A stretch of DNA of 42,856 bases from NCBI RefSeq assembly GCF_014196205.1, contig NZ_JACIDE010000026.1:1-42856 (forward strand), written 5' to 3'. Positions 3,317 through 42,856 of this stretch are shown here, in pieces. Numbering within the stretch: the first letter of the stretch is position 1; every line of letters begins with the position of its first letter. Source of the DNA: Anoxybacteroides voinovskiense. Its GTDB lineage: Bacteria > Bacillota > Bacilli > Bacillales > Anoxybacillaceae. Below the pieces are notes generated by a model. That model was not told the DNA's origin. It saw nothing but the letters and a program-made list of their open reading frames with translations, and searched no databases. Position numbers and translations under genes: made by a program.

Positions 3317-3334
3317 TAAAGAAGGATGGCAGAC

Positions 3335-4240: not shown

Positions 4241-4251
4241 GCCCGTTTTTC
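4219..4251. terminator. Bidirectional terminator shared by yjbO and prpE
   Basis: A hairpin with arms AAACGGG / CCCGTTT, extended by CACG / CGTG after one mismatch, is flanked by T on one side and A on the other. It overlaps the stop codons of both convergent genes, so the terminator lies inside coding sequence. Confidence 0.75.
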
Positions 4252-4986: not shown

Positions 4987-5032
4987 TTTCTCACCTGCTT
5001 CTACTTTTTACGATGTCACCATAACACGCGGT

Positions 5033-6208
5033 TTATTCGTCTGAAGAAAACATAAATTTTTTCGTGCGGGAACGGACGTTTAAGACGAGACCAATCGCCA
5101 ACATATACGTCGCCAATGAACTTCCTCCGTAGCTGACAAACGGAAGTGGTAAACCAGTTATTGGAAGTAACCCGATCGTCATTCCAACGTTTTGGAACAC
5201 TTGAAACGTAATCATGCCGATAACGCCGGCGCATAAGTAGCTGCCATATACGTCGTGGCTTTCGAGCGCAATATGAATCATTCGGTAGACAAGCAAGAAA
5301 AAGAGTGAAACGACGATGCTAGCACCAACAAACCCAAACTGTTCGGCGATAATGCCAAAAATAAAGTCGGTATGCGCTTCTGGCAAATAGACATCTAAGT
5401 TTTTATATCCTTTGCCATACATCTCTCCTGATCCGATCGCTAAAAGGGAGCGAATAAGCTGAAACCCTTGCTCGTTCGAATATTCGTACGGCGCTAGCCA
5501 ACCGTAAAATCGGTCAAGTTGATACTCTTTCAAAATATATTTATGAAAAAAGTCAGGGAATTGAAAGAAAACAAATACGAGCACAGAAACCGCAAATACT
5601 CCACTGAATAAAATTCCTAAAATAATGCGCCAACGAATGCCCGATACAAGTACGAGCGAAGCGGCAATCGCCATATACACCATCGACATTCCCATGTCCG
5701 GCTGACGAATTAAGAGAAATAGCGGTGGAGCTAGCGCAAGTGCAATTTTCCCTAATAGTTTAAAATCGTCTTCAACCGTCGGCTCCGGATATGTTTCCCG
5801 ATGGTTGACGATCATTCGGCTAATGACAATAATCATAAAAATTTTCATTAATTCGGATGGCTGGAAATTTCCCGCTCCTGGGATGGAATACCAGCTCGTT
5901 GCCCCTTTAATCGTCACCGTTCCAGGAACGTTTAGCTCAAGCCCGAGCAGTAGCACCATGCCAAAGCCGTATAAATACCACGCCACGTGGAAAAGCCGGT
6001 CGTAATCCACTAACATGGTAATGGCGATAACGAAGGCGCCAATAACATACCATTGTAGTTGCTTAGCCGCAAAGTTAATGTGTTGCAATTTTTCCGGTAA
6101 AGACGGTTGAGCGCTATGAATCGCAATCGCGCTGACGATCGCGATTAAAAATAATAGAAATAGCAAATGGTAGTCTAGCTTTTGTTGCGGCAATTTATCT
6201 TGTTCCAT
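5033..6208 (-). CDS. SEDS-family protein (FtsW/RodA/SpoVE)
   Basis: The 391-aa polytopic membrane protein has about ten hydrophobic helices. It has the conserved SEDS stretches GATSWYSIPGAGNFQPSEL and the C-terminal LPITGLPLPFVSYGGSS. SEDS proteins polymerise lipid II glycan strands together with a class B PBP. The GKGY and LPEAHTDFIFGIIAEQFGFVG motifs fit the RodA-like subgroup best. No PBP gene is adjacent, so its division, elongation or sporulation role cannot be decided. It has a good Shine-Dalgarno (GGAG) before ATG 6208. Confidence 0.9.
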   Translation of the reverse strand: MEQDKLPQQKLDYHLLFLLFLIAIVSAIAIHSAQPSLPEKLQHINFAAKQLQWYVIGAFVIAITMLVDYDRLFHVAWYLYGFGMVLLLGLELNVPGTVTIKGATSWYSIPGAGNFQPSELMKIFMIIVISRMIVNHRETYPEPTVEDDFKLLGKIALALAPPLFLLIRQPDMGMSMVYMAIAASLVLVSGIRWRIILGILFSGVFAVSVLVFVFFQFPDFFHKYILKEYQLDRFYGWLAPYEYSNEQGFQLIRSLLAIGSGEMYGKGYKNLDVYLPEAHTDFIFGIIAEQFGFVGASIVVSLFFLLVYRMIHIALESHDVYGSYLCAGVIGMITFQVFQNVGMTIGLLPITGLPLPFVSYGGSSLATYMLAIGLVLNVRSRTKKFMFSSDE

Positions 6209-30706: not shown

Positions 30707-30735
30707 TTGACAAATCGTATTTGCGTCTATATAAT
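30707..30735 (+). promoter_or_regulatory. Consensus sigma-A promoter of tRNA-Val
   Basis: TTGACA (30707-30712) and TATAAT (30730-30735) are both perfect, with a 17-bp spacer, 32 bp before the tRNA gene. Confidence 0.9.
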
Positions 30736-30766: not shown

Positions 30767-30839
30767 GATTCCGTAGCTCAGCTGGGAGAGCGCTACCTTG
30801 ACAGGGTAGAGGTCGCTGGTTCGAGCCCAGTCGGAATCA
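30767..30839 (+). tRNA. tRNA-Val (anticodon GAC)
   Basis: The acceptor stem GATTCCG pairs with CGGAATC, the D-arm is GCTCAGCTGGGAGAGC, the anticodon stem CTACC/GGTAG holds TTGACAG with anticodon GAC (reads GUC, GUU), and the T-arm is GCTGG TTCGAGC CCAGT. The CCA is not encoded. A phage-type integrase follows, so the 3' end is a likely integration site. Confidence 0.95.
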
Positions 30840-30873
30840 TCAGAATAGTTGTATCAATGGTTCGCTCAATATT

Positions 30874-30895
30874 CACAACATTGAAAAATGTTGTG
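30874..30895 (+). repeat. Hairpin ahead of the integrase promoter
   Basis: CACAACATT / AATGTTGTG with a 4-nt loop. It overlaps the possible -35 at 30891, so it could be an operator or arm-type site. Confidence 0.55.
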
Positions 30896-30918
30896 GTCGT
30901 AGCGAAACTTGCTACAAT
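30891..30918 (+). promoter_or_regulatory. Possible integrase promoter
   Basis: TTGTGG (30891-30896), 16-bp spacer, TACAAT (30913-30918). It is 40 bp before the integrase start. Confidence 0.45.
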
Positions 30919-30924
30919 ACGGGT

Positions 30925-30959
30925 AAACCACTTCACAGAAATGTGAGGTGGTTTTTTTT
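30925..30959 (+). terminator. Terminator whose stem carries the integrase ribosome site
   Basis: AAACCACTTCACA / TGTGAGGTGGTTT pair with one G-T, GAAA loop, then a run of eight T. GAGGTGG in its right arm is also the only Shine-Dalgarno for the integrase TTG start at 30958. It is probably the tRNA-Val terminator. Confidence 0.85.
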
Positions 30960-31875
30960 GTTGCTTAAATTTGCAATTCAAGATTTTTTAGATGACAGAA
31001 AATTTAAAAATGTAACTCCTAAAACGATTGAAACGTATCAAAACATCTTAAAGCATTTTTTAGATTTTTGTATTGAAAATGGAATAGTGAATGTTCAAGA
31101 TGTGACTTCAAGTATAATCAAAAAATATTTACTCTACTGTAAAGAAATAGGAAATGTATCTACTACTACAAACACAAAACTTCAACGAATTAAAGCATTT
31201 TTCAATTATATGATCGAAATTGAAGTGATAAACAAGAATCCAGCCGAAAAATTTCAGCGTGCTAAAGAAGATGTGAAAATTGACGTTTTTTCCGATTATC
31301 ACATTAAGCAAATGTTAAATTATTACAGACGAATCAAACAAAGAGAAAAGGCGTTCTATGCTTATCGTGATTATTCGATCATCGTAACGTTATTAGGCAC
31401 GGGTTTACGATTGAGCGAACTCTGTTCGCTGAAATGGGCAGATGTTGATTTTGTCAATCATACTATGACCGTTTTCGGCAAAAGTCGGAAACGTGAAACT
31501 ATTCCGATGACCGAAAAATTCTCTAAAGAGTTAGCATCTTACAAATTGTATTGTGAACAATATTTCGGTGCTGAAAATTTGAGTGAGTATGTTTTTACAA
31601 ACAGATACAATAAGAAACTTACCCCGAACGCAGTACAAAATATTTTCAAACGCTTAGCAAAGATCATGAATTTCAAGGATGTACGTCTATCAGCACATAC
31701 ATTCAGACACACATTTTGTCATCGGTTAGCCATGTCGGGAATGTCGGCATTTGCCATTCAGAAACTCATGCGACACCAAAATATCAACGTCACAATGCGT
31801 TACGTTGCTATGTGGGGGAACGATTTAAGAGAACAAAATGATAAATATAATCCTTTAAACAATCTAGACATTTAA
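30958..31875 (+). CDS. Tyrosine recombinase (integrase, XerC/XerD-like)
   Basis: This protein of about 305 aa has a SAM-like N-terminal core-binding domain (TPKTIETYQNILKHFLDFC) and a C-terminal catalytic domain with Arg in GTGLRLSELCSLKW near residue 151, HTFRHTFCHRL near 247, His in LMRHQN near 271 and Tyr in TMRYVAMW near 282. It would integrate the element at tRNA-Val by site-specific recombination. The start is unclear: TTG 30958 is best placed after GAGGTGG, and TTG 30961 or GTG 30943 are alternatives. All lie at the terminator, which may limit expression. Confidence 0.9.
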   Translation: MLLKFAIQDFLDDRKFKNVTPKTIETYQNILKHFLDFCIENGIVNVQDVTSSIIKKYLLYCKEIGNVSTTTNTKLQRIKAFFNYMIEIEVINKNPAEKFQRAKEDVKIDVFSDYHIKQMLNYYRRIKQREKAFYAYRDYSIIVTLLGTGLRLSELCSLKWADVDFVNHTMTVFGKSRKRETIPMTEKFSKELASYKLYCEQYFGAENLSEYVFTNRYNKKLTPNAVQNIFKRLAKIMNFKDVRLSAHTFRHTFCHRLAMSGMSAFAIQKLMRHQNINVTMRYVAMWGNDLREQNDKYNPLNNLDI

Positions 31876-31890
31876 GCGGGAGGGGTAAAA

Positions 31891-32052
31891 ATGAAAACAA
31901 TTCAAGTGACTGAAACCGAACTAGCGACATTGAAAGCGGTGCTATACGCACAAATTCAGCAGATGAAGCGTGAAAAAGCAAACGGGGCTAATGTAGATGA
32001 TCTTCTAGAACAGTACCAACAAGCATTTGAAGCATTGAATTTTGCAAAATGA
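31891..32052 (+). CDS. 53-aa helical protein
   Basis: ATG 31891 follows the strong GCGGGAGGGG. The peptide MKTIQVTETELATLKAVLYA continues into a second helix ending EALNFAK. It is all-helical, polar, with no known motif. It lies 15 bp after the integrase gene and is probably cotranscribed; an excision or regulatory role is possible but unsupported. Confidence 0.65.
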   Translation: MKTIQVTETELATLKAVLYAQIQQMKREKANGANVDDLLEQYQQAFEALNFAK

Positions 32053-32060
32053 AAAAAGTG

Positions 32061-32087
32061 GGAGTGATGACGCAAACATCACTCCCA
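32061..32087 (+). terminator. Hairpin after the 53-aa gene
   Basis: GGGAGTGATG / CATCACTCCC, a perfect 10-bp stem with a 6-7-nt loop, but without a clear T-tract. Probably a transcript end or pause. Confidence 0.5.
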
Positions 32088-32179
32088 TAGGATAGATATA
32101 ACTAAACATACGACTAATTAAATCCTACAATTTTTTAAAATAAAAATCAAGTAGGTTTATTTAGTTATATCTATCCTAT
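32087..32179. repeat. 20-bp perfect inverted repeat with 53-bp spacer
   Basis: ATAGGATAGATATAACTAAA at 32087-32106 is repeated in reverse complement at 32160-32179. The spacer is AT-rich, contains the shorter pair CCTAC / GTAGG, and repeats AACATACG around the arms. It lies 32 bp ahead of the next gene. A regulatory or replication role is possible. Confidence 0.75.
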
Positions 32180-32210
32180 CGAACATACGTTTGATAGGAG
32201 GAATGAAAAA

Positions 32211-32996
32211 ATGAAAGCAGGAAGCATTGAGCAATTTAAACATTTATCACAGTTTCGGGATATTCGTGACTTCAATAATCAGATCGAGCAATGGATGATT
32301 GACCTTAAATCAAAATTTACAAAGAGTGAACTTATCGCTTTAAAGCGTATAATTCGTTTCAGTGCCAAAATTGCCGGCGTTTGTAACGCAAAAATTCAAA
32401 CGCTTGTTTCCGCATGTCATGAAGCAGGTCATGAAATTTCACGTTCTACTTTCGAGCGTATGTTGCGAAAAGCCAAAAAATTCGGTCTTTTGATTGTCTA
32501 CAATACAAAAAAAGAAAACGGTAAACAAGCACACAATGTCTATGTATTTCAGCGATACACTTCTATTTCATCTACAAATGACGTAGCAGAAAATGCGAAA
32601 ATTGACGGAGCAGAAAACTATCATTCTTCTTTTGAAACTAACAATAATATAAATAAACGTACAGAGAACGTTGAAACAGAAGATACTCTCGACGCTTCAT
32701 ATACTTCTTCAAGAGTACCAGTCCAATTTCGCGACTTTGTACGTTGTTTTTGGAATGATTTTACAATTATAGAGGAATTATGGAAGGTTATTCAAATTCA
32801 AACATACTACTATACGTATATGACGCTAGAAGAAAAGACACAACTCGGCATTTCGGCACTCAAACAAATGATTCGGAATTTGAAACGTGGACGTAAAATC
32901 ATAAACATTTTCGGCTATTTCTATGCGATTGTGTCGGCTCTACTCGATCGTGAAGCGCAAGAAGCGTGGCGTGAAATGATGTGGGAAGTGGCATAA
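32211..32996 (+). CDS. Helix-turn-helix protein of Bacillus mobile elements
   Basis: The 261-aa protein has an N-terminal winged-helix region: KSELIALKRIIRFSAKIAG and then a recognition-type segment ISRSTFERMLRKAKKFGLLIVY near residues 75-97. A low-complexity linker (130-160) leads to a C-terminal helical domain (FRCFWNDFTIIEELWKVIQI). I recall similar proteins in Bacillus plasmids and elements, usually of unknown or replication-linked role. It precedes the repeat array, so it could bind it. A GATAGGAGG Shine-Dalgarno supports the start. Confidence 0.7.
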   Translation: MKAGSIEQFKHLSQFRDIRDFNNQIEQWMIDLKSKFTKSELIALKRIIRFSAKIAGVCNAKIQTLVSACHEAGHEISRSTFERMLRKAKKFGLLIVYNTKKENGKQAHNVYVFQRYTSISSTNDVAENAKIDGAENYHSSFETNNNINKRTENVETEDTLDASYTSSRVPVQFRDFVRCFWNDFTIIEELWKVIQIQTYYYTYMTLEEKTQLGISALKQMIRNLKRGRKIINIFGYFYAIVSALLDREAQEAWREMMWEVA

Positions 32997-33670
32997 AAAA
33001 ACACTTGACAAAGAAAACGCTTATTTCTCAATACTTTTTCTACACTTTTGCGAAATTTGTCGAAAAGTTTTTTCGTAAATTGTGACAAATTTGTGAACAA
33101 ATATGTAAATAAATGGTAAATTTAAGTGGTGTTTCGAAAAAAATCGCGAAAAATTTTCGTTTAAAAAGCAATATTATAGGAAGGTATGCAATAAAAATAT
33201 AATTTAAGGAAAAATCCTAAAAAATTTTCATTTAAAAACCTATATTATGAAAGGTATGTAAAAATTGTAGATAATATTGTGTCGAAAAAATGGGAGAAAT
33301 TAAGGATTTTTCACAGAATATATAATTATGAGGTGATAATTACAGGAAAAATCGTAAAAATTTTTCATTTTAAAAGCTATATTATGAGGAGTATAAAATT
33401 TCGGCGAAAAATCCTAAAAAATTTTCCTAAAAAAAGCAATAATATGAAAGATATGTACTAAAAATATAATTTAAGGAAAAACCCTAAAAATTTTCTGTTT
33501 AAAAAGCAATATTATGAAAGGTGTGTATTAAAAATATAATTTGGGCAAAAATCCTAAAAATTTTTCATTTAAAAACCTATATTATGAGGAGTATAAAATA
33601 AAAATATAATTTGGGCAAAAATCCCGAAAATTTTTCGTTTTAAAACCTATATTATGAAAGGTATGTATAT
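32997..33670. repeat. AT-rich noncoding region with tandem repeats of about 70 bp
   Basis: From 33139 the unit AAAAATCC-TAAAAATTTTTC, then AAAACCTATATTATGAAAGG, recurs at about 33139, 33210, (33280, degenerate), 33347, 33407, 33477, 33547 and 33617. Spacing is about 70 bp in most steps. Units end in TATGTA and are joined by AAAATATAATTT. There is no open frame of note. Such an array fits a replication origin with iterons, or repeated promoters or binding sites. Confidence 0.8.
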
Positions 33671-33672
33671 TT

Positions 33673-33707
33673 TTCATTGATTGCCGATTTAATCGACAAT
33701 GAATGAA
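33673..33707 (+). repeat. Long hairpin after the repeat array
   Basis: The arms TTCATTGATTGCCGATT and AATCGACAATGAATGAA pair in 15 of 17 positions with a loop of one base. It opens a cluster of three hairpins ending at the terminator at 33825. Confidence 0.65.
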
Positions 33708-33723
33708 GGGTATATCTCCCTTC
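33705..33723 (+). repeat. Short hairpin GAAGGG / CCCTTC
   Basis: A perfect 6-bp stem with a 7-nt loop, just after the long hairpin. The two may belong to one structured RNA. Confidence 0.5.
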
Positions 33724-33796
33724 CTCAACAATACGAGATTCTTTCATGTATCAATGCAAAGTTTTACTAATTCACTTTTTCGCCTCCATTTTCTTG

Positions 33797-33825
33797 GAGT
33801 GGGCTTTTGCCTACTCTTTTTTTTT
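33797..33825 (+). terminator. Terminator upstream of the holin-like gene
   Basis: GAGTGGGC / GCCTACTC with a TTTT loop is followed by nine T. No gene in the previous 800 bp explains it, so it may end a small RNA starting at or in the repeat array. Confidence 0.85.
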
Positions 33826-33874
33826 ATCTCTTTTTTTCTCATATTTATTACTTTTTGGAAAGGGGGCGTTGACA

Positions 33875-34096
33875 TTGGATATTTCATCTATTCCATTAGA
33901 GCAATTCGCAACAAATGGTGTATTCGCTTTATTATTCGTTTGGTTGCTCGCGGATACACGAAAAGAGGCAAAACAACGAGAAGAAAAACTTCTCGCACAA
34001 ATCGAAAAACAGAATGAAGCACAAGAGCGTATCGTCCAAGCAATCGAACGAATTGAGAAAAAAATCGAAAAAATGGAGGTGTCAATGAATGGCTGA
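33875..34096 (+). CDS. BhlA/UviB-like holin-type protein
   Basis: The protein of about 73 aa starts at TTG 33875 behind GAAAGGGGGCG; upstream ATGs lie across the terminator. It begins with DISSIPLEQFATNG, then one hydrophobic helix FALLFVWLLADT, then a charged coil KEAKQREEKLLAQIEKQNEA and repeats of KIE. This is the layout of BhlA/UviB proteins, linked to host lysis or bacteriocin release. It lies before the capsid genes, an unusual place for a holin. It overlaps the next start by 8 bp. Confidence 0.78.
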   Translation: MDISSIPLEQFATNGVFALLFVWLLADTRKEAKQREEKLLAQIEKQNEAQERIVQAIERIEKKIEKMEVSMNG

Positions 34097-34490
34097 AATT
34101 ACGTCAAGCGGATATATTTCTATTCGTGAGCATATCGTAGGAAATTGGAAGAAAGTTGTATTGCTCACATCTGACAATATTCAAGTTTTCTCAACAAACA
34201 TCGGCGGCACAAAAGCAAGTTGGACGCATACAAAAAGCACAGAAGAAAAAGTAGTCGGATATAACGATTTTGGAGAACCTATCACTGAACAAGTCGCCGT
34301 TGAATCGAATCCAAACATGGAAATAACTGTAACTGTAACTGGTGCAGATGTGATGGGTACAGTATCAAAAGTGAGAGTACTTGACACGCAAAATCGTATC
34401 ATGACAGAAGAAACATTCTCACCGTTCACATTTGAAAATAGTGCAGATGAGTTGACATTGAAAGTTAAAATCCAAGTGCCGCAACAATAG
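34089..34490 (+). CDS. Beta-rich protein, probable virion component
   Basis: The 133-aa protein is mostly beta (WKKVVLLTSDNIQVFSTNIG, MEITVTVTGADVMG, ELTLKVKIQVPQQ) with no catalytic motif. It is the first of a run of genes leading to scaffold and capsid, so it may be a capsid decoration, head fibre or neck protein. I recognise no family. Start ATG 34089 overlaps the holin-like gene and follows ATGGAGGTG. Confidence 0.55.
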   Translation: MAEITSSGYISIREHIVGNWKKVVLLTSDNIQVFSTNIGGTKASWTHTKSTEEKVVGYNDFGEPITEQVAVESNPNMEITVTVTGADVMGTVSKVRVLDTQNRIMTEETFSPFTFENSADELTLKVKIQVPQQ

Positions 34491-34502
34491 GCGGTGATTA
34501 AT

Positions 34503-34910
34503 ATGTATATTGAAGTCATTTCAGTCGTTAAAAAAATAATTTCAGATACAAATAGAAGCGAACAAGTGAAAAAAGAGAGCCGACATGTCACGTCATATAT
34601 ATATCCTATCCAGACGCAAATACAGCGTCATAGACGCGAATTTGTCGAGGTGAATAGTTTTATATTTCCTGTCACTTCAGAAGCCCGTATAAGCGAAAAT
34701 CAAACGCTTTCAAAACATGAGAATAGAAATATCGCGTCATATGTACGTCATATGTCGTCATATGCGACAGCGCAGACAACACAAAAAAAAGAAAATATAC
34801 ATATATATGCTCATGCGACAGTATATGAAAATATATCCACGACACATGTCGCTGAACATCGTTCATATGCTCACAGTATTGAAAATCCTTCTTTTACGGA
34901 GGTGACATGA
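34503..34910 (+). CDS. His/Tyr-rich protein of unknown function
   Basis: The protein of about 135 aa starts at ATG 34503 behind GGCGGTG. After an ordinary N-terminus (MYIEVISVVKKIISDTNRSE) it becomes unusually rich in His, Tyr, Ser, Thr and Glu, with spaced HxxxY pairs (RHVTSYI, NIASYVRHMSSYA, IHIYAHATVY, HRSYAHSI). In DNA this part repeats CGTCATAT several times. No family recognised. It overlaps the next gene by one base. Confidence 0.55.
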   Translation: MYIEVISVVKKIISDTNRSEQVKKESRHVTSYIYPIQTQIQRHRREFVEVNSFIFPVTSEARISENQTLSKHENRNIASYVRHMSSYATAQTTQKKENIHIYAHATVYENISTTHVAEHRSYAHSIENPSFTEVT

Positions 34911-35188
34911 TGGCACTTGCAGGCGATACTGTACGGTTGAGATGTCATTTTCGCAGTTTCGATGGGCAAAATATTGATCCTGCTGATGTGAAGTTGCGAA
35001 TATATGACACCCAAAAACAATTGATTGAAGAATTTATTTTAGATGATTCCCAAAAAGAGAATGTGGGGATTTTTTATTTTGATTATATACTCCCCGATGA
35101 CAAACAAGAAATTATTTTCGAGTTTCGAGGGTTATATGATGGGAAACCTATCCTCACACGAGGACAGGTAAAAATCAAATATATTTAA
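34910..35188 (+). CDS. Ig-like / baseplate-type small protein
   Basis: This protein of about 92 aa opens GDTVRLRCHFRSFDG, has alternating strands (VKLRIYDTQKQLIEEFIL, GIFYFDYILPDD) and ends LTRGQVKIKYI. The pattern recalls small phage proteins with a BppU-N-terminal or Ig-like fold. It lies directly before the scaffold gene. Start ATG 34910 follows GGAGGTGAC, and the overlapping ATG 34907 is the alternative. Confidence 0.55.
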   Translation: MALAGDTVRLRCHFRSFDGQNIDPADVKLRIYDTQKQLIEEFILDDSQKENVGIFYFDYILPDDKQEIIFEFRGLYDGKPILTRGQVKIKYI

Positions 35189-35208
35189 TGAAAATGGAGG
35201 TATGAAGT

Positions 35209-35652
35209 ATGAGTGAAAAAGTAGTACAAGAACAAACTCAAGAGCAACAAGAACAAGAGCAAACACAACAACAAGAGCAACAAGAGCAACAAGTAGATAT
35301 GAAAACATATCTCGAACTAGTCGAAAAAATTTCAAAAATGGAACAAACACTTGCGAATGAAGCAGAAAAAGCGCAAAAAATTGCTGAAAAAGAGCAAGAA
35401 CTATTTCAAAAGCAAGTGCAATTGACATTGAAAGAAAATGGACTAGATAAATTTGCAGATATTGTCAAAGTATCTAATGAAAATGAATTGGCTGATGTAG
35501 TGAAGAAACTTCAAAATATCGTTAACGAAATTCGTATCGAAAGTGGTTATGTACCTGCCGATCATGTCAAAACTGATGAATATAGCGTATATGAAAAAAA
35601 GAAAGACGTGGCAGGTATGATTGCCACTAAAATTTCTAAATTATTCCAATAA
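35209..35652 (+). CDS. Capsid scaffolding protein (putative)
   Basis: The 147-aa protein has a Gln/Glu-only N-terminus (QEQTQEQQEQEQ-type, residues 7-28), a coiled coil (residues 30-75, LELVEKISKMEQTLANEAEK) and a conserved-looking C-terminal part with ADIVKVSNENELADVVKKL. This is the usual scaffold layout, and the gene is right before the capsid gene. It ends in five consecutive in-frame stop codons. Strong Shine-Dalgarno ATGGAGG. Confidence 0.75.
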   Translation: MSEKVVQEQTQEQQEQEQTQQQEQQEQQVDMKTYLELVEKISKMEQTLANEAEKAQKIAEKEQELFQKQVQLTLKENGLDKFADIVKVSNENELADVVKKLQNIVNEIRIESGYVPADHVKTDEYSVYEKKKDVAGMIATKISKLFQ

Positions 35653-35676
35653 TAATAATAATAGGAGGATGATAAT

Positions 35677-36540
35677 ATGTTTAAATCTGCAAACTTTACG
35701 AATGCTGAACTTGTGAATTTGTCTAAAGAAATCGCGGTGATCGGAGTGCAAGCAACACCATTCACTTCACTTCTTCTTGCAAAAGGTTTTGAAAAAGCGA
35801 CTTCTACTATCTATACATGGCGTGAAAAAACTCTTTCTCATGATGAAGATATTTCAGCAGTTGAAGGTAGCGAAACAACTGTATTCACAGAAAGTGGACG
35901 CAGAGAATTGAACAATGTACTAGAAATTTTCAAGAAAGGTGTGAGCGTTTCAGGTACGGCTCAAGCGATGCAAACAGCACAATTTGCAAATGAAGTTTCT
36001 GACCGTTTGCTTGAACTCAAAATTAACATTGAGAAAAAATTCATCACTGGCGTGAAAGATGATGGCTCAAGCACTGGAAAGCGTCAAATGGGTGGACTCA
36101 TTTCATTTGCAGATCCTGCTAACGCTGTCAACGTGACCGATACAGTTACAGAAGATACCGTAAAAGAAGTGATGAAGAAATTATGGCTACAAGACCTTGC
36201 TGAAGGGAACTACTATGCACTTGTCAATGCTGAAATCAAGGAACAGATTGATAGTATTTACAAAGATCGTTATTCATATCAACATGTCACTAACGATTTT
36301 GGGCTTGTAGTCGATTCAATTCAAACTAATTACGGAACGTTGAATATGATTTTAAGTAAACATGTTCCAGCCGACAAAATGGTTGTGTTCAATGATGCAT
36401 ATGTACGTGCTGTATTCTTGCGTGAGCCGATTTTCGAGCCACTCGCAAAAACAGGTGACAGCGTCAAAGGACATGTCATCGCAGAAGCAACATTGAAGAT
36501 CGCTTCTCCAAAAGCCGTTGCCGTCGTAACGGTTGCTTAA
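35677..36540 (+). CDS. Major capsid protein (HK97-like, SU10/DUF5309-type)
   Basis: The 287-aa protein begins with MFKSANFTNAELVNLSKEIA and continues with VIGVQATPFTSLLLAKGFEK and EKTLSHDEDISAVEGSE, the layout of DUF5309/SU10-type capsid proteins. Further stretches are RRELNNVLEIFKKGVSVSGT and LELKINIEKKFITG, and the end is a beta-rich HVIAEATLKIASPKAVAVVT. The length is normal for the family. Strong AGGAGG upstream. It is the last gene before a terminator. Confidence 0.8.
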   Translation: MFKSANFTNAELVNLSKEIAVIGVQATPFTSLLLAKGFEKATSTIYTWREKTLSHDEDISAVEGSETTVFTESGRRELNNVLEIFKKGVSVSGTAQAMQTAQFANEVSDRLLELKINIEKKFITGVKDDGSSTGKRQMGGLISFADPANAVNVTDTVTEDTVKEVMKKLWLQDLAEGNYYALVNAEIKEQIDSIYKDRYSYQHVTNDFGLVVDSIQTNYGTLNMILSKHVPADKMVVFNDAYVRAVFLREPIFEPLAKTGDSVKGHVIAEATLKIASPKAVAVVTVA

Positions 36541-36555
36541 TTAAGTACATAGTCA

Positions 36556-36595
36556 AAAAGGGGATACTTGCATTTTGCTTGTATCCTCTTTTTTT
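36556..36595 (+). terminator. Terminator after the capsid gene
   Basis: A hairpin of GGGGATAC / GTATCCTC with inner pairing of TTGC and GCTT is followed by seven T. It closes the scaffold-capsid transcript. Confidence 0.88.
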
Positions 36596-36636
36596 ATAAA
36601 AAATTTACTCATATTTTTGACAGGAGGTGAAATGAA

Positions 36637-36816
36637 ATGAATATCAAATTGCGTGATGAGTATCTTTTGAAGCGCAGGAAAAAACACATTTCGCAAAAAG
36701 AACTAGCAGAATATCTCCAATGCTCTCAGTCGTTACTTTCGAGATATGAACGCGGAGAATGCGGCATGAATCGAGAAAAAGAGAAAATGTATAGAGAGTA
36801 TATTGATAAAAAATAG
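36637..36816 (+). CDS. Small XRE-family (Cro/C1-type) HTH protein
   Basis: This 59-aa protein is almost only an HTH: KHISQKELAEYLQCSQSLLSRYERGE, with the typical QxxLA and SRYERGE core. It would bind operator DNA as a dimer. It sits right after the capsid terminator, an unusual place for a phage regulator. ATG 36637 follows GACAGGAGGTG. Confidence 0.85.
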   Translation: MNIKLRDEYLLKRRKKHISQKELAEYLQCSQSLLSRYERGECGMNREKEKMYREYIDKK

Positions 36817-37072
36817 AAAAATAAAACACATATTTTATTAAAAAGAAACTGGAGGTGAAAAAGTGAAGAAAGACGTACGAAACACGTCATGACCACTCCT
36901 TTTATTCCGAAAAATATAAAATTTTCTTTGGAATAAAAGGAGAAAATCTAATACTGAATAAAGAGTATTAGATGGTTATGATGTTTTAAAAAATTCAATA
37001 TATATTTAGAAAAAATAAGTAATAAATTGGATATAGGAGTGGGAGTGTTTCTCTTTCTTTCACTTGTGAAAG
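36817..37072. promoter_or_regulatory. Structured intergenic leader before the 268-aa gene
   Basis: Besides the small frames, it holds GACGT / ACGTC (36871-36888), a perfect 13-bp repeat CTCCTTTTATTCC / GGAATAAAAGGAG (36896-36942) and ATCTAATACT / AGTATTAGAT (36946-36973). The right arm of the second contains the SD-like AAGGAG, which the left arm would mask. Close to the next start is CTTTCAC / GTGAAAG. Confidence 0.55.
36863..36892 (+). CDS. Possible 9-aa leader peptide
   Basis: GTG 36863 follows a near-ideal GGAGGTG (ACTGGAGGTGAAAAA) and reads MKKDVRNTS, stop. A second tiny frame (MTTPFIPKNIKFSLE, 36889-36936) overlaps its stop as ATGA. Nested hairpins follow. The arrangement resembles a translated leader that controls downstream structure, but the downstream gene starts 130 bp away. 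Confidence 0.4.
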   Translation: MKKDVRNTS

Positions 37073-37879
37073 ATGAAAAAAGAAATTAGAGAACTATTCC
37101 CAAAATGGATTGACGAAACAAACATAAAATATGACCTAATTCTCGGTGATGATGTCGATAGTAGTATTGGATGTAACTTATTAAAAGTTATTACTAACAA
37201 CAAATGGGATATAAACTATTTTTATGATTTTCAAAACTTCTATCGTCACGAAAAAACAGAAAATAAAACGATTGGCGTTGATATGGCGTTTTTGAAAAAA
37301 GTACGATGTTTTGATAATCATTTAAGTAAACGAACGAAAAATGATATATATAATGAACTTTGTGCGAATTTGAATCTTGTATATAATGTTTCATGTGAAA
37401 ACTATACAAAAAAATATTCAATGTCAACGTTGATGTTAATTATGAGTTTATACGATATTCCGTTGCCAAAAACGACAGAAGGTAAAGAAATTTTGCTTGC
37501 AATAGATACTGCGTTCAAGGGGTTTTATTCTGAAACTTTTAGACCGATTCATACCAACTGGTTAGAAACGCTCGGATATACTGAATTGATTGACGTTCTT
37601 AAACAAAGAGATGCAAAATATTTTTATGAGATTATTCAGCAATATGGACTACATAAAAAAATATACATAGACGAAAACGGCTGTTTGCAATCGGAAATTC
37701 GATTCGGTGCAATTCAGCCGTTTTTTGATTTTGAAATAGGGTTGCCGGAACAACAATTTAAACTGATTAAACAGTGCAAAAGAGCAAATCATGATGTATC
37801 GAAACAGATGCCCGAAAGAGAACGGATTATTTCTCTCGCATACACAAAAAGAGATTTTGTATCTTATACATATTATTAA
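37073..37879 (+). CDS. Phage protein of unknown function with DHH-like N-terminal motif
   Basis: The 268-aa protein has ILGDDVDSSIGCNLLKVI near residues 23-40, followed by YFYDFQNFY and GVDMAFL. I recall phage proteins with a DxD-S-like motif of this kind, related to the DHH phosphoesterase N-terminus, but the rest is not recognised and this may be chance. No good Shine-Dalgarno is seen; CTTTCAC / GTGAAAG forms a hairpin right before ATG 37073, so translation may be controlled. The next gene follows by 15 bp. Confidence 0.55.
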   Translation: MKKEIRELFPKWIDETNIKYDLILGDDVDSSIGCNLLKVITNNKWDINYFYDFQNFYRHEKTENKTIGVDMAFLKKVRCFDNHLSKRTKNDIYNELCANLNLVYNVSCENYTKKYSMSTLMLIMSLYDIPLPKTTEGKEILLAIDTAFKGFYSETFRPIHTNWLETLGYTELIDVLKQRDAKYFYEIIQQYGLHKKIYIDENGCLQSEIRFGAIQPFFDFEIGLPEQQFKLIKQCKRANHDVSKQMPERERIISLAYTKRDFVSYTYY

Positions 37880-37894
37880 CGGAGGTAATCAGAT

Positions 37895-38077
37895 ATGAAA
37901 AAGGAATATTTCTTTTGCTATGACCAACGGCTTGCCGATTTTTTGAGGTATGAAAAGAATATTGAATACATTACAAAAGCACGAAGCGTTAAAAACAACT
38001 TCATTTTCTATCTTTTTGAAAAATCTGATCTACTACAAACCGCTATTGACGAGTGGTTAAAAAAAGGGGTACAATAA
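37895..38077 (+). CDS. Small protein resembling DUF5659
   Basis: The 60-aa protein reads MKKEYFFCYDQRLADFLRYE, then KNIEYITKARSVKNNFIFYL and FEKSDLLQTAIDEWLKKG. The pattern 'F-x-CYDQRLA-x-FL ... IFYLFEKS-x-L' occurs in small phage proteins called DUF5659. Role unknown. Good GGAGGT before ATG 37895. Confidence 0.65.
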   Translation: MKKEYFFCYDQRLADFLRYEKNIEYITKARSVKNNFIFYLFEKSDLLQTAIDEWLKKGVQ

Positions 38078-38078
38078 A

Positions 38079-38219
38079 GACCGAAATTTAACTAGTTAAT
38101 TTTTGGGTCGAATTGTGACCATTTTTTAACTAGGGTAGTTAAATTTTGGTCATTTTCGTGACCATTTTTTAACTAGTGGTAGTTAAATTTTGGATCTAAA
38201 ATTGACCAAAAGTTAACTG
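38079..38219. repeat. Iteron-like palindromic repeats
   Basis: Four units begin with GACC and run to TTAACT: 38079, 38117, 38160 and 38204, spaced 38-44 bp. The first three are near-palindromes around TTTAACTA / TAGTTAAA, the middle two separated by GGG or GTGG; the last is a half site. They lie before a putative replication or regulatory gene, so they may be its binding sites. Confidence 0.75.
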
Positions 38220-38248
38220 TATAACAGATATACTATAATAAACAGATA

Positions 38249-38285
38249 AACTTACTTACTAACAGATAGGGTAAGTGAGTAAGTT
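38249..38285 (+). repeat. Hairpin in the leader of the 451-aa gene
   Basis: AACTTACTTACT / AGTGAGTAAGTT with one G-T pair and a 13-nt loop, 38 bp before ATG 38323. Confidence 0.6.
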
Positions 38286-38322
38286 TTAAAGTTAATCTAA
38301 TTAATATAAGGAGGAATCTAAT

Positions 38323-39678
38323 ATGTATATTAAAATCTATAATGTATTCACTCAATTCAACCATGAACAAAAAATTAACGCAAATGAATTGTATTTGTAT
38401 AGTTATCTGTATACACTTCAAACATACGAAAACAAAGTATATACAAATATTGATTTATTGACACAACTAATCCCATTTAATTCAAAAAAATCACAAAACA
38501 TTAAAAAGATCAAAGAGATTCTCGATTCACTTAAATGCAAACATATCATTCAATTTAATGACGTTTCAAGTAATAATGAAATTCTTATCATTCAATTTCA
38601 AAATATTGATGGTGGCTATGAACCGATTACATATGAGAAATTTCGTTCGTTTTCTGATGTATATGATTATTACATTTACGTTTGTGTGGCAAGAACAAAA
38701 GAAAAAATGGTTGAATATTCAATTTCACAATGGGAAACACTACTTGAACTTTCCAGACCGCAGACGGTTGCAAAATTGAGAATGGTAATTGACAAAGGAA
38801 TTATTTGTAAACGCGAAGGAAAATATACAGATGAAGAAGCGCGGAATGGACAGAAAAAACAAGAAAAAAATGTGTACTATATTCCTGTCAAAGAAAAAGA
38901 TGTTGCCAAACAAGTGACAACATCACAAAAAGAAATCGTTCAAACTGTCCAAGAAAATAATAACACAAAAGTCAAAGAAAATCAATGTCAAACTGAAACA
39001 CGTCAACATAATTGGTATGAACATGGTTCTACACTCGATGAATATGACTTCTATGTATATATGACGACGAATGATGAGAAGTTGAAAAAGGCGGCAGAAA
39101 AACGTATTCGAGCATTAGAAAAAAGCGAAAAAGGAAAATATATCGTTGAACAGTTGAAAAAATCGGCTGAGCACCGTGTGAAAGATGAAAAGCAGAAAGC
39201 AGAAAAAGAAAATATGAAACATATGAAAAATGCTGTACGAATGAAAAATAGTGATATTGTTGAGGTTGATGAGAAAAATATAGATCGAATTGATGTGAAT
39301 GATGTAGAGAGTATTTTCTATTCAACAAACGAATATCTCGATGATGAAATGAAAATGTCATCGTTCCAACCAGTTGTAAACGAAAATGGAAAACATGTAC
39401 ATGAAAATCGTTCAGATATGATATGCAGAGGATGGGAAATGTATGTCGAACATGTGAAAACTGGTGCGATGATGACATATGAAAAAGGAATAGAAATCAA
39501 AAATCAAGTGTTTGACGAATTTTTTCCGCCTCAAATAGATGATCGAGAAGAAGAAACAGAGTGGCAAAGAAAAGCACGCGATGAAAATCGAAAGAAGGTA
39601 CTCGAGAGTTTTAGTTTTGCAAAACTAAAACAGAAAGATGACGAAGATGACTGGAGTTGGCTAGATGAATTAAGTTAA
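38323..39678 (+). CDS. Putative replication initiation-type protein
   Basis: The 451-aa protein has a winged-helix-like N-terminal part with ANELYLYSYLYTLQTYENKV and YTNIDLLTQLIPFNSKKSQN, as in phage and plasmid initiators of the RepA-N or DnaD group. A second possible helix-turn region (SISQWETLLELSRPQTVAKL) follows near 135-155. The rest is charged, with low-complexity stretches, and ends DDWSWLDELS. Four palindromic repeats lie in front of the gene. I cannot name the family, and it may instead be a regulator. Confidence 0.5.
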   Translation: MYIKIYNVFTQFNHEQKINANELYLYSYLYTLQTYENKVYTNIDLLTQLIPFNSKKSQNIKKIKEILDSLKCKHIIQFNDVSSNNEILIIQFQNIDGGYEPITYEKFRSFSDVYDYYIYVCVARTKEKMVEYSISQWETLLELSRPQTVAKLRMVIDKGIICKREGKYTDEEARNGQKKQEKNVYYIPVKEKDVAKQVTTSQKEIVQTVQENNNTKVKENQCQTETRQHNWYEHGSTLDEYDFYVYMTTNDEKLKKAAEKRIRALEKSEKGKYIVEQLKKSAEHRVKDEKQKAEKENMKHMKNAVRMKNSDIVEVDEKNIDRIDVNDVESIFYSTNEYLDDEMKMSSFQPVVNENGKHVHENRSDMICRGWEMYVEHVKTGAMMTYEKGIEIKNQVFDEFFPPQIDDREEETEWQRKARDENRKKVLESFSFAKLKQKDDEDDWSWLDELS

Positions 39679-39713
39679 TGGGCTAGCAAAACACTAGTCC
39701 ATTTTTTTTATTA
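39677..39713 (+). terminator. Terminator after the 451-aa gene
   Basis: ATGGGCTAG / CTAGTCCAT with one G-T pair and a 7-nt loop is followed by eight T. Confidence 0.88.
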
Positions 39714-39735
39714 ATCAAATAAAGGGGGAACTCAT

Positions 39736-39873
39736 ATGAATCGTTTAGATCTATTATTTCTTCAAGTATCAAATATAAAGTTAAATCTTTTAGAACAACA
39801 AATGATAACTAGAGATGTAAAAAACGAATTGAAACGGCTAGAAAGATATATTCAAACAAAGGAGGAAAAATAA
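39736..39873 (+). CDS. 45-aa helical protein before the terminase genes
   Basis: ATG 39736 lies behind AAAGGGGG. MNRLDLLFLQVSNIKLNLLE continues into a charged helix ending QTKEEK. It has a heptad-like pattern. It lies one base before the small terminase gene, whose Shine-Dalgarno (AAGGAGG) lies in this gene's last codons, so the two are coupled. Function unknown. Confidence 0.65.
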   Translation: MNRLDLLFLQVSNIKLNLLEQQMITRDVKNELKRLERYIQTKEEK

Positions 39874-39874
39874 T

Positions 39875-40294
39875 ATGCGTAACATCGGCATTCATAAAGC
39901 ACTTGAAAGCGTGGACTGGCGGAAACGAGCATACTTCCAACGAAAATTTCAAATCAAAACACCGAAAAATGAACATATTTTGCGTATGACTGATGAAGAA
40001 TTTTTGCGATGGGCAGAACGAAAAACGATGACGGTGTTTGAGAATTGGGAGCAGACGGATGAGTATTTTTCGCTCTATCTCGAATACATGAAAGGAAAAA
40101 TGCAACGTGACCTTGAAACAGTGTATGACATTGTGACGGAAAAAGCAAAGCAGGGTGATGAAAAGGCGGTGAAACTTTTTCTCCAACTTCATTCAGAAGT
40201 ACAGAAACTTCAACGTGAAATGAATCGGAAACCGAAAGTGAAGAAAGATGAGTCGGTGCAAGAAATTGATGAAGATGATGAGTTAGAAATTTAA
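39875..40294 (+). CDS. Small terminase subunit (putative)
   Basis: The 139-aa protein is helical and charged (LESVDWRKRAYFQRKFQIKT, then FENWEQTDEYFSLYLEYMKG) with an acidic end QEIDEDDELEI. Position directly before the large terminase gene, size and helical content fit TerS, which recognises phage DNA for packaging. No clear HTH motif is readable, so the name rests on context. Confidence 0.65.
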   Translation: MRNIGIHKALESVDWRKRAYFQRKFQIKTPKNEHILRMTDEEFLRWAERKTMTVFENWEQTDEYFSLYLEYMKGKMQRDLETVYDIVTEKAKQGDEKAVKLFLQLHSEVQKLQREMNRKPKVKKDESVQEIDEDDELEI

Positions 40295-40299
40295 ATCAG

Positions 40300-40320
40300 A
40301 CAATATGTCTGTTTTAAGCA
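40300..40320 (+). terminator. Weak hairpin between terS and terL
   Basis: CAGAC / GTCTG with a 5-nt loop and TTTT. A second short stem GTATCA / TGATAC follows at about 40323-40339. They may reduce read-through into terL. Confidence 0.5.
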
Positions 40321-40368
40321 GGGTATCAGAATTGATACATTGCTTTTTTGTTTACAGGAGGTGAAATG

Positions 40369-41967
40369 ATGGCTAAAAAATTGACGAAAGAGGAAAAATT
40401 GCAGATTATTCAAAATGATTTTAAACTGTTTGCAAAAAATTTCATAAAAATCATCGACAACAATGGTGATACAGTACCATTCGTATTGAATCCCGAACAA
40501 GAAAAATATATTAATGAGATGGGAAAATACAACATCATTCTCAAAGGGCGACAAATCGGCTTCACGACACTATCTCTTGCTTATATGTTGTATAGTGCAT
40601 GCACAAAACCCGATACAAACTATATTATTATGACTCATCATGCGTCTGTATCGAAATCTCTTTTCGTAAAACTCAAGAAAATGTATAAAAATCTTCCTCA
40701 TGGGAAATATAATTTATTTCCCAAAGCGTTATTAAACAATCGTGATGAATTATACTTGGAAAATGGAAGTCGTATCATCATCGCAACGGCGCAGGGTGAA
40801 GATGCAATTTCGGGAAACACGTTCCAATTCATACACCTTTCTGAAATGGCAAAATATCCAAACGATGTGCAAGAGGAAATCATCGCAACATGTATTCCAG
40901 CGCTCGCAAAGAATGAATCGTCAATGATATGGATCGAATCGACAGCGTTCGGTTTTAACACGTTCCAAGAAATGTTTATGAAGGCGTACAGAGATAGAGA
41001 GAGTGTGTGGAAGGCATTTTTCTTCAGTTGGCTTGCTGAAGCATATACGAAACAGTTTAAACATACATTTGACGAGGCGGAAGCATGGTGGAAAGCGAAG
41101 AACAACGGTAGACGAATGACATATGATGATCTTGAGCATGATGAAAAGATTTTACGTGACAAATACGGGGCTACATATCGACAACTCATGTTTCGACGAT
41201 ATTATGTTGAAACGAATAGTTTAGAGAAGTTTAGACGTGAATTTCCGACGACACCAGATGAAGCATTCCAAGAGAGTACGAAAAGTGTATTTGATATTGC
41301 GAAAGTGATTGAAAAAATACAATATGCTATTCCGCCGATAGAAACGAAAGATGTATATGATGAATTGCCGGACGTACTTAAACAATATGTAAACAAAAAT
41401 CTATTCATTTATCATCTTCCAAAACCGAAAACAAAATACTATGTAGGTGTGGACGTGGCAAGCGGACAGGGTGGCGACTATTCGACTATGTCTATTTTTG
41501 ATGAAGAAGGGCAACAAGTAGCAAGTTTTTATGCGAATGATATTGCAGTATACAAGTTTGCAGAGATTGTTGATGCTTTAGGAAAGTTTTATAATTATGC
41601 TTTTATTTGTGTGGAACGTAACTCGTACGGTTTGCCGTTGCTGGAGAGATTAAGAAAAGATTACGGTTATTTAAATCTTCTCAAACAAAAAGTATTTGAC
41701 CAAAAAGGAAAACGTAAAATGCAGTTAGGTTTTCAAACGACGAATACAACAAAACCGATCATTATCAACGACATGAAAGAAATGTTTGAGTTGGGTATGA
41801 TTAATATTGAATGTGTTAGAACGCTTGAGGAGATGAAAATCTATCAAGAAGATGCGAAAGGGCGTACTAATGCGAAAAAAGGCGTAAAAAATCATGATGA
41901 CCTTGTGATTGCCGTTGCGATGGCAGTACAAGCAATGAAACAGGGAAAATATTATGTTGAAATCTAG
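40369..41967 (+). CDS. Terminase large subunit
   Basis: The protein of about 532 aa has an ATPase domain with a Walker A variant LKGRQIGFTTLS near residues 58-69, HASVSKSLFVKL, and Walker B-like FIHLSEMAK near 157. The C-terminal RNase H-like nuclease has GVDVASGQGGDYS near 360, VERNSYGLPLLE and KNHDDLVIAVAMA near 508. It cuts and translocates DNA into proheads. ATG 40369 (or 40366) follows AGGAGGTG. Confidence 0.92.
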   Translation: MAKKLTKEEKLQIIQNDFKLFAKNFIKIIDNNGDTVPFVLNPEQEKYINEMGKYNIILKGRQIGFTTLSLAYMLYSACTKPDTNYIIMTHHASVSKSLFVKLKKMYKNLPHGKYNLFPKALLNNRDELYLENGSRIIIATAQGEDAISGNTFQFIHLSEMAKYPNDVQEEIIATCIPALAKNESSMIWIESTAFGFNTFQEMFMKAYRDRESVWKAFFFSWLAEAYTKQFKHTFDEAEAWWKAKNNGRRMTYDDLEHDEKILRDKYGATYRQLMFRRYYVETNSLEKFRREFPTTPDEAFQESTKSVFDIAKVIEKIQYAIPPIETKDVYDELPDVLKQYVNKNLFIYHLPKPKTKYYVGVDVASGQGGDYSTMSIFDEEGQQVASFYANDIAVYKFAEIVDALGKFYNYAFICVERNSYGLPLLERLRKDYGYLNLLKQKVFDQKGKRKMQLGFQTTNTTKPIIINDMKEMFELGMINIECVRTLEEMKIYQEDAKGRTNAKKGVKNHDDLVIAVAMAVQAMKQGKYYVEI

Positions 41968-41998
41968 TCGTCACATGAGTGATGACTTTTTATTTTTA
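41966..41998 (+). terminator. Terminator after terL
   Basis: AGTCGTCAC / GTGATGACT with one G-T pair and an ATGA loop is followed by T-rich sequence. Confidence 0.82.
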
Positions 41999-42021
41999 TA
42001 TTGAAAGGGGTCGATATATAT

Positions 42022-42792
42022 ATGAATCTTCAACAATATATCAAAGAATATCACGATGGGCGCGGTGATTGGTTTGTTGAGGAAGTACAATCAGTACAAG
42101 CACAACAAAGAGTAATGAATGTAATGAATTTAAAAGAATATCTTGACGGAAAACATCGCATATTGATGAAACCGAATGAGAGGTTCGGCGGGAAAGAATA
42201 CGAACCGAGAAAGATTGTCCTGAATCATGCACTAATGCTGTTAAATTTTCAAACGTCGTTTTTGCTTCAGAATCCTATTACAATTACGGGACACGAACGA
42301 ATCGTAAACGAATATCAAAAAGTAAACAAACGAGGTAAATATGATCGGTTGAATTATAAGATTTTAGACAAAATGCTCAAATATGGGCAAGTGTATGAGT
42401 ATGTGTATTTTGACCGAAATACGATTAAATCAAAGTTGATTGATGCAAGTGAAGGTTATCCTATTTTTAATGATGAAAATGAAATGATTGCATTTGTACA
42501 GGCGTACACGGTGAATGGTGTAGATTATTATATTTTATACACAGATGATACGGTTGAAACTTATGATAACAAAGGTGGAGAATTACGCCTAACTGGAAGA
42601 TATGCGAATTTATCGGGATTGCCTTGCGTCTATAAAACGACAAATGAAGTGAATGAGAATGAGGGAAAAAGTGAATTAGAGAATTGGATGAGTATTTTAG
42701 ATTCACTTGAGGATCTATTAAGTAAAGCAACCGATGCATACTACAAATTTATTACGGGTATTCCTGTAAATTATCATTTTATCCCCGAATAA
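42022..42792 (+). pseudogene. Portal protein, SPP1-type, truncated
   Basis: The 256-aa product begins MNLQQYIKEYHDGRGDWFVE, with LKEYLDGKHRILMKPNERFG and the KIVLNHALMLLNFQTSFLLQNPI stretch typical of SPP1-type portals (usually 450-500 aa). It ends at a stop right after KFITGIPVNYHFIPE, about where the family is halfway. The sequence following the stop does not continue the portal in any frame that I read. A frameshift, insertion or contig join are possible. Portals form the 12-subunit DNA channel of the head. Confidence 0.75.
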
Positions 42793-42856
42793 AACGCCTT
42801 CTTTTTTGCAAATTCCTTCGGAATGTCCCCCTCCCCTTTTCTGAAACAGTATGCTA
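42776..42856. other. Sequence of different character at the window end
   Basis: After the portal stop the sequence is C-rich (CCCCCTCCCC) and holds ATTCC / GGAAT, unlike the AT-rich element. It looks like an inserted or foreign sequence, perhaps the end of an insertion sequence. No gene is visible. Confidence 0.4.

Follow-up and report, generated by a model that had tools for sequence, protein, structure and literature searches.

A probable capsid-forming phage satellite with its head genes in two separate blocks, integrated at a tRNA-Val gene of Anoxybacteroides voinovskiense

The window analysed here is the whole of contig NZ_JACIDE010000026.1 (C26; 42,856 nucleotides) of the 3.23 Mb draft genome of Anoxybacteroides voinovskiense (assembly GCF_014196205.1), and its right end probably holds the left-hand three quarters of a phage satellite of the capsid-forming kind, inserted at a tRNA-Val gene. 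The element encodes a head-and-packaging set comprised of a scaffold-like protein, a major capsid protein (MCP), a presumed terminase small subunit (terS), the terminase large subunit (terL), a portal, an adaptor-like protein and a stopper. These genes are split: scaffold-capsid lies on the left, terS-terL-portal-adaptor-stopper lies on the right, and genes for regulation and replication separate the two blocks. We are confident, short of certainty, that the element belongs to a previously unrecognised satellite lineage, which would work like the capsid-forming phage-inducible chromosomal islands (cfPICIs) by making its own head and borrowing a tail. An earlier note on the window had proposed a new phage or satellite lineage, or a rearranged prophage; the first proposal is supported, and a satellite favoured, by the distance of ~12-19 kb from integrase to stopper, the element's own head genes, the lack of a recognisable tail and a gene order kept in dozens of elements.

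The genes and their order from integrase to portal, as described in that note, were recovered from the open reading frames (ORFs), PHROGs (covering 21 of the element's 21 proteins), Pfam (19 of 21) and TRF, and the ~3.3 kb of regulatory and replication-type genes between capsid and terS measures 3.33 kb (capsid end at 36540, terS start at 39875). The features are listed below; "relatives" are five integrated elements of other genomes, and "full elements" are 40 related elements with enough upstream sequence.

30767..30839, + strand: tRNA-Val(gac), the integration site (ARAGORN)
30795-30845: left attachment site (attL), 51 bp, exact direct repeat with C42:3759-3809
30943..31875, + strand: tyrosine integrase (PF00589, E 3e-34)
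31891..32052, + strand: s53, small conserved protein, at the same position in 5/5 relatives with 40-49% identity
32211..32996, + strand: helix-turn-helix (HTH) replication-initiator-like protein (phrog_1835 2e-29, phrog_270 9e-8)
33393..33667: 70-bp repeats in about four copies, perhaps an origin or a regulatory site (TRF)
33875..34096, + strand: BhlA/holin-like membrane protein (PF10960 3e-6, 27.4 bits against a cut-off of 22.6), ORF listed from 33746
34089..34490, + strand: g133, exchangeable virion-type protein
34494..34910, + strand: g138, partner of g133, with a repetitive sequence that looks fibre-like by eye
34907..35188, + strand: g93, small, perhaps Ig-like (phrog_18294 3e-22; weak MG2 match below its cut-off)
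35209..35652, + strand: scaffold-like protein, homologue in 40/40 full elements
35677..36540, + strand: MCP of SU10/DUF5309 type (SU10_MCP PF17236, E 2.7e-78; phrog_1328 4e-62)
36637..36816, + strand: XRE-type HTH regulator (PHROGs), in 40/40 full elements
37073..37879, + strand: g268, predicted DHH/RecJ-like fold (AlphaFold pLDDT 93.7), in 37/40 full elements
37895..38077, + strand: g60, small conserved protein (phrog_21297 2e-4; DUF5659 1e-3, below its cut-off), in 37/40 full elements
38093..38218: iterons with a period of 43-44 bp
38323..39678, + strand: rep451, presumed iteron-binding replication initiator, from its position beside the iterons
39875..40294, + strand: presumed terS, from its position before terL and small size, homologue in 40/40 full elements
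40366..41967, + strand: terL (phrog_2 2e-38; PF03237 and PF17289 above cut-off), ORF listed from 40348
42022..42764, + strand: portal gene, N-terminal part, SPP1-like (PF05133 4e-33), ORF listed from 42001
42765..42856: left end of an insertion sequence, interrupting the portal gene; the contig stops here
C42:3759-3809: right attachment site (attR), 51 bp that repeat the 3' end of tRNA-Val exactly

Contig C26 ends within the insertion sequence, which itself lies inside the portal gene, and its terminal 92 bases are common to the ends of contigs C8, C13 and C15. Reading of the contig ends revealed inverted termini and a 7-bp target duplication (42758-42764 / C42:93-99), and the C-terminal part of the portal is found at the start of contig C42 (C42:93-634; PF05133 3e-24). 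Together, the second portal fragment, the inverted termini and the duplication show that an insertion sequence splits the portal gene and breaks the assembly. The portal gene named in the earlier note is confirmed, but its ORF, which ends after ~260 codons, is just the N-terminal part. On C42 the portal is followed by a 206-codon gene, a 176-codon gene, c109, c187 (the stopper) and attR; the element does not stop where the note had ended it, and the right attachment site was found, as it had suggested, beyond the window. Without the insertion sequence the element comes, by arithmetic, to 15,680 bp including both attachment-site copies. When joined, its chromosomal flanks match uninterrupted across the junction, with 86-91% identity, in four of the six other genomes of the genus (G010, G012, G013 and G014), and in G011 and G015 the match stops at the junction. 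The G+C content is 33.7% for the element and 44.6% for the chromosome on its left. A capsid fragment of a larger prophage was considered and ruled out for the window element, as attR is followed by ribonucleotide reductase-like genes (by eye) with a cobalamin riboswitch upstream of them (L014:4092-4288, 105 bits). Because its portal gene is interrupted, the window copy is probably inactive and, unaided, probably incapable of head formation; there are relatives whose portal is uninterrupted.

The divided gene order is a property of the lineage. A capsid search found relatives in five other genomes, i.e. in 6 of the 41 host-family genomes including the window's own, and a g268 relative is present in 9 of the 398 genomes of the class (a count of g268 matches alone, not of gene order). 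All five integrated relatives have the order integrase, s53, HTH, BhlA, g133 or g116, g138 or GLUG, g93, scaffold, capsid, XRE, g268, g60, a rep gene (rep451 or an alternative), terS, terL, portal, c109, c187, the c187 end of G007 being taken from L038 of the same 29,248-bp contig. They occupy different sites, namely tRNA-Val in G004, G005 and G007 as in the window's genome (G000), tRNA-Leu in G026 and, in G028, a further site with a 40-bp repeat, and measure between attachment sites ~14.0 kb (G004), ~15.7 kb (G005), 16.3 kb (G028) and, with inserted transposase-like genes, 22.8 kb (G026). The integrases adjoining the same tRNA in G004, G005 and G007 are 90-92% identical to that of the window.

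IMG/VR was scanned with TerL, the HTH protein, g268, the capsid and a broader TerL alignment, which yielded many more members. Family-gene profiles built from 18 loci and the window, a basis that affects detection and not order, were then mapped on 174 loci. These were merged into 97 contig groups wherever any exact 120-mer was in common; thirty groups without at least one of capsid, terL and portal in the stretch covered were left out of the count. The capsid precedes terL and terL the portal in 65 of the 67 groups having all three genes, which overlap the genome set (the window's L040 and records of G004, G007, G026 and G028 are included), and the whole core order is kept in 62. Among the five exceptions, g60 has moved in L076, and the contig start seems rotated in L101, L198, L212 and L215, which have the same order if circular (closure was seen for L101 and L212; L198 was covered in part); only in L198 and L212, both apparently rotated, is the capsid not upstream of terL. 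An assembly join or local inversion, for which the earlier note had allowed together with relatives of standard order, is therefore ruled out, the same order being present on unbroken stretches of relatives and on self-closing contigs, and a prophage rearranged by a single local accident is not supported. In the 40 full elements, scaffold, XRE, terS and c109 are each found 40 times, g268 and g60 37 times each, the integrase 35 times, BhlA 26 times and the module of g116/g133 and GLUG 20 times; the span from integrase to stopper is 12.3-18.8 kb with a median of 15.7 kb (35 elements). Named hosts, at least three, comprise Anoxybacillus pushchinoensis, Fictibacillus phosphorivorans and Aneurinibacillus tyrosinisolvens.

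In L076 (17,584 bp), L101 (16,259 bp) and L212 (14,390 bp) the two contig ends overlap exactly over 127, 127 and 123 bp, respectively, which indicates circles or linear genomes with short terminal repeats. The portal gene of L212 spans the contig ends, and L101 is cut between portal and c109. The integrase profile had no match in closed contigs L076 and L212. L211, with a 75-bp end repeat, was left out of the closed set, since it carries a flagellin-like gene (by eye) and may be an integrated copy with attachment-site repeats.

In cfPICIs the usual order is terS-terL-portal-protease-capsid-connectors. They are described as integrated islands with their own capsid, portal, connectors and terminase, without tail genes and in need of a helper's tail (PMC10690885, PMC11389934 and PMC10448857), and a figure legend speaks of a conserved gene order (PMC13230959). 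The present element resembles them in having its own major capsid, portal, connectors, terS and terL (terS and the adaptor being assigned by position), and no recognised tail gene was found in the present elements. It differs in its capsid, which belongs to PF17236, whereas PF05065, the capsid family used for cfPICI trees (PMC13230959), is absent from all six family records searched (G043, G045-G049). Neither a head maturation protease family nor AlpA or Pri-Rep, the last two listed as cfPICI signature genes (PMC10448857), is among the PHROGs and Pfam matches of the element, and no HNH gene was found in it, its XRE protein weakly overlapping phrog_8446 (E 0.012). In L114, one of the distant members, DnaG zinc-ribbon and primase were each matched weakly. 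Furthermore, the present element has a scaffold-like gene, and its capsid block lies upstream of and apart from terS-terL-portal. That the lineage is a rearranged subgroup of known cfPICIs, as the shared strategy (own head, connectors and terminase, no tail) and a size near that of the 15.8 kb cfPICI-like episome TG54 would suggest, is unlikely in view of its capsids (PF17236 or phrog_544), the lack of protease, HNH, AlpA and Pri-Rep matches and the position of the capsid upstream of the terminase. By the features compared, with cfPICIs represented by published descriptions and by their generally known order, the element is not a cfPICI; capsid family, gene order and these missing genes lead us to class it as a capsid-forming satellite set apart from them.

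Two further satellite types are comparable. TG54, an episomal capsid-forming satellite plasmid of Vibrio termed cf-PISP (PMC13230959), is circular and has head genes without a tail, cf. the closed contigs L076 and L212, but carries a PF05065 capsid, a protease, HNH, parA/repA and the cfPICI gene order (PMC13230959). The Streptomyces satellites Mulch and Flayer share with the present element a small genome, small and large terminases, portal, capsid, scaffold and a head-to-tail adapter, but, compared by description only, have their structural module in one region, virulent helpers, direct terminal repeats and hosts among the Actinomycetota (PMC10690885). Phage satellites in general are mobile and maintained while lacking genes to form particles autonomously; the present elements integrate, are conserved and under purifying selection and have no recognisable tail, and would fit this definition if they depend on a helper.

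The lack of a tail was scrutinized in 26 non-core ORFs. Of these, 22 come from a set of 45 ORFs of at least 85 codons, the remaining 23 of which (transposase-like, repeat copies of one element, or small or opposite-strand spurious-looking) were left out along with shorter ones; L076 and C42 contributed two more each. No tail family is among the 25 (of 30) PHROGs families listed for them, and the eight Pfam families found are helicase parts, HTH, MerR, sigma region 4 and a DUF. Twenty further ORFs from closed contigs matched 11 families, all of them functionally undescribed. Tape-measure family PF10145, detected in 7 of 14 control genomes, had no match in any of 10 element records. The longest ORF in the 40 full elements has 570 codons, near terminase size; tape-measure genes usually exceed this length. 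These results bear on the possibility that the element is a tiny tailed phage able to propagate alone, with a short tail made of unrecognised proteins, namely g133/g116, the GLUG-repeat protein and the two-domain c187. A BhlA-like holin family gene is present, the GLUG protein resembles a gene of phage Sundance annotated as "putative laminin G domain" (E 6e-13), and c187 has a second domain beyond its stopper fold. Such a phage is nevertheless quite improbable, as the g133, g116 and GLUG profiles have no match in 20 of the 40 full elements, no lysin family is among the families listed for the 26 non-core ORFs nor in the window element, and the closed contigs reach just 14.4-17.6 kb.

Decay or domestication was likewise considered, with the elements as remnants of formerly complete prophages now without tail genes, or as heads taken over by the host. 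The insertion sequence in the window's portal gene, several transposase-like genes in G026 (by eye) and an interrupted terL frame in G007 fit this view, which we regard as very improbable: terL, MCP and portal are under strong purifying selection (four elements), core gene set and size are alike in 40 distinct elements, attachment sites differ and integrases are down to 27-30% identical, and closed contigs exist.

The origin of the order can be approached through phages with related capsids. Enterococcus phage VEsP-1, Sporosarcina phage Lietuvens and the Lachnospira (Eubacterium) eligens phage-like plasmid have capsid proteins of 29-33% identity; they differ in being tailed phages or a phage-like plasmid, and in all three annotated records terL, portal, minor capsid and capsid, then connector and tail genes, form one block, in agreement with the capsid-after-portal order that the earlier note had given as usual. 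The scaffold profile weakly matches (E 2e-4) the gene that stands before the MCP of the E. eligens plasmid. The satellites, by comparison, lack a scaffold-capsid pair between portal and adaptor and have ~0.35-3.3 kb of variable DNA in that slot. This is most simply read as a move of the capsid block; relative to the three tailed-phage records the order does look rearranged, but by an old change that has become fixed in the lineage. The SU10 capsid type of the window prevails among the members found; a second SU10 type occurs in G026 (26% identical), L050 and L058, and phrog_544 capsids were found in all six capsid-position ORFs examined among distant members, these six belonging to 16 of 72 contigs without a capsid profile match. 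The capsid has thus also been exchanged within its position. The lineage is distant from known phages, in line with the search that the earlier note had advised: the best phage TerL among the matches listed (20 of 2006 records) has 29% identity, the phage MCP matches listed (20 of 23) have 24-31%, and among the best 80 rows of the broad TerL scan 39 contigs have 60-100% and the rest at most 34% identity. A further-reaching interpretation, to which we give somewhat better than even chances, is that capsid-forming satellites of this kind are old, arose independently and are widespread in Bacilli. Their capsid cassette would have moved from the portal-adaptor slot to a separate left block, leaving a cargo slot and a capsid exchangeable alone (at least three capsid types in the same place, with terminase, portal and neck staying together), and some members would be plasmid-like circles without integrase.

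For the favoured satellite, the following cycle is proposed. Upon induction the integrase would excise a circle of ~15.6 kb, which the HTH and Rep proteins would replicate from repeat-type origins; the element would then build a small head and fill it with its own DNA by means of its own terminase. The stopper (c187) would close the head and offer a dock, and tails and lysis would be supplied by a co-infecting or resident tailed phage. Several points weigh against this reading. Helper dependence, induction, packaging and the particle itself are deduced from genes, and the absence of a tail from family searches, one tape-measure family and gene length, so that a small tail of unfamiliar kind could be present. 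The divergent member L129 has an 879-codon gene left of the capsid (2881-5520), the HTH protein occurs in 8 of the 40 full elements only, and the end overlaps of the closed contigs could be short terminal repeats of linear genomes. Finally, the left arm is common to ordinary phages and thus not specific to satellites. The ordinary-looking phage fragments L074 and L075 carry a closely similar integrase and HTH gene, together with the ordinary order terS-terL-portal-protease-capsid, a PF05065 capsid and, at the end of L075, tail-like genes (genes other than capsid, integrase and HTH by eye).

No description of this gene order turned up in the literature, as covered by titles and abstract openings and few subscription papers; the evidence that none exists is therefore weak. 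Capsid-forming satellites were discovered recently, and searches for them use models built on known head families, which may miss the present lineage; as SatelliteFinder missed some capsid-bearing candidate PICIs of mycobacteria (PMC10654092), unlisted lineages are to be expected. Dozens of the present contigs are classed as viruses in IMG/VR. The lineage would show the strategy of own head and borrowed tail in another organisation of genes. It also allows a test of whether c187, the neck protein, adapts satellites to different helper tails; c187 evolves faster than the rest of the head proteins compared.

Regarding individual genes, g268 has as best Foldseek match RecJ-Cdc45 (prob 0.97, E 4.6e-3) and invariant residues D27, D29, D70 and H83, the DHH fold having metal-binding D-x-D, D and H motifs; it is a predicted phosphoesterase or nuclease, perhaps a nuclease or cyclic-nucleotide phosphodiesterase acting against helper or host. 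For c187 a stopper fold and a second domain beyond it are predicted; sequence-based comparison of its profile, and of that of g268, with proteins of solved structure gave nothing useful. The adaptor was assigned by position alone, and terS had no convincing family match in PHROGs or Pfam. The terL start is the ATG at 40366 or 40369. The BhlA-like holin of the earlier note stands by its family, but not by its listed start, the TTG at 33875 being the probable one; related ORFs have 69-80 codons in 13 of 18 cases. A terminator claimed between capsid and XRE was not recovered, a simple scan giving none on the + strand. The slot of g133 is taken in other elements by g116 and a GLUG-repeat protein of 400-450 aa.

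The iteron period of 43-44 bp recurs in all seven g60-rep451 intervals examined (six distinct elements), with two sequence types, one in the window and L025 and one in L029, L032, L038, L054 and L058; rep451 is 65% identical to that of the window in L025 and 50-54% in G007 or G028. rep451 had no family match of its own in PHROGs and Pfam, and its position can be taken by rep251, which matches phrog_19047 and DnaD-like families, or by others. The 70-bp repeats were rejected as a conserved origin, no such array being present at that position in the relatives' intervals examined.

The protein g133 and the second half of c187 have a common short motif of two types, NDFGEP-like or TPWGEE (window 34089-34490; L014:3032-3595), and its type agrees between the two in all five distinct elements readable in both (window, L025, L029/L036/L038, L050 and L054). 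Homologues of c187 with ~390-400 codons, twice the usual size, occur in L039 (15801-16976) and L129 (1354-2559), that of L129 adjoining the integrase. Uncharacterised phrog_8308 matches the 879-codon protein of L129 (7e-85) and one L076 protein (3e-135). The terL frame is interrupted by ~260 bp after query residue 68 in L029 (16154-16415), L038, L054 and L055, with identical sequence in L029, L038 and L055, L054 being a separate element; an intron in the interrupted terL of G007 was rejected, as no Rfam match was found there (L029).

Defence cargo was dismissed, PADLOC matches being weak (best Cas3-like, 1.7e-10, in 1 of the 26 ORFs; KwaB, 7e-5, in one). A helper in the same genome was sought among prophage genes on C10 (portal) and C18 (a 1041-codon frame with a tape-measure match) and set aside; no family profile matched the 31 kb of C10 examined. 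A possible helper pair was seen by eye on a 55.9 kb IMG/VR contig, where a satellite lies directly downstream of a different, larger prophage (L276, L277; G441:1-38500) having terL-like, portal-like and amidase-like genes and one of 1428 codons. Upstream of tRNA-Val, a perfect consensus promoter (12/12, 17-bp spacer) is located at 30707-30735.

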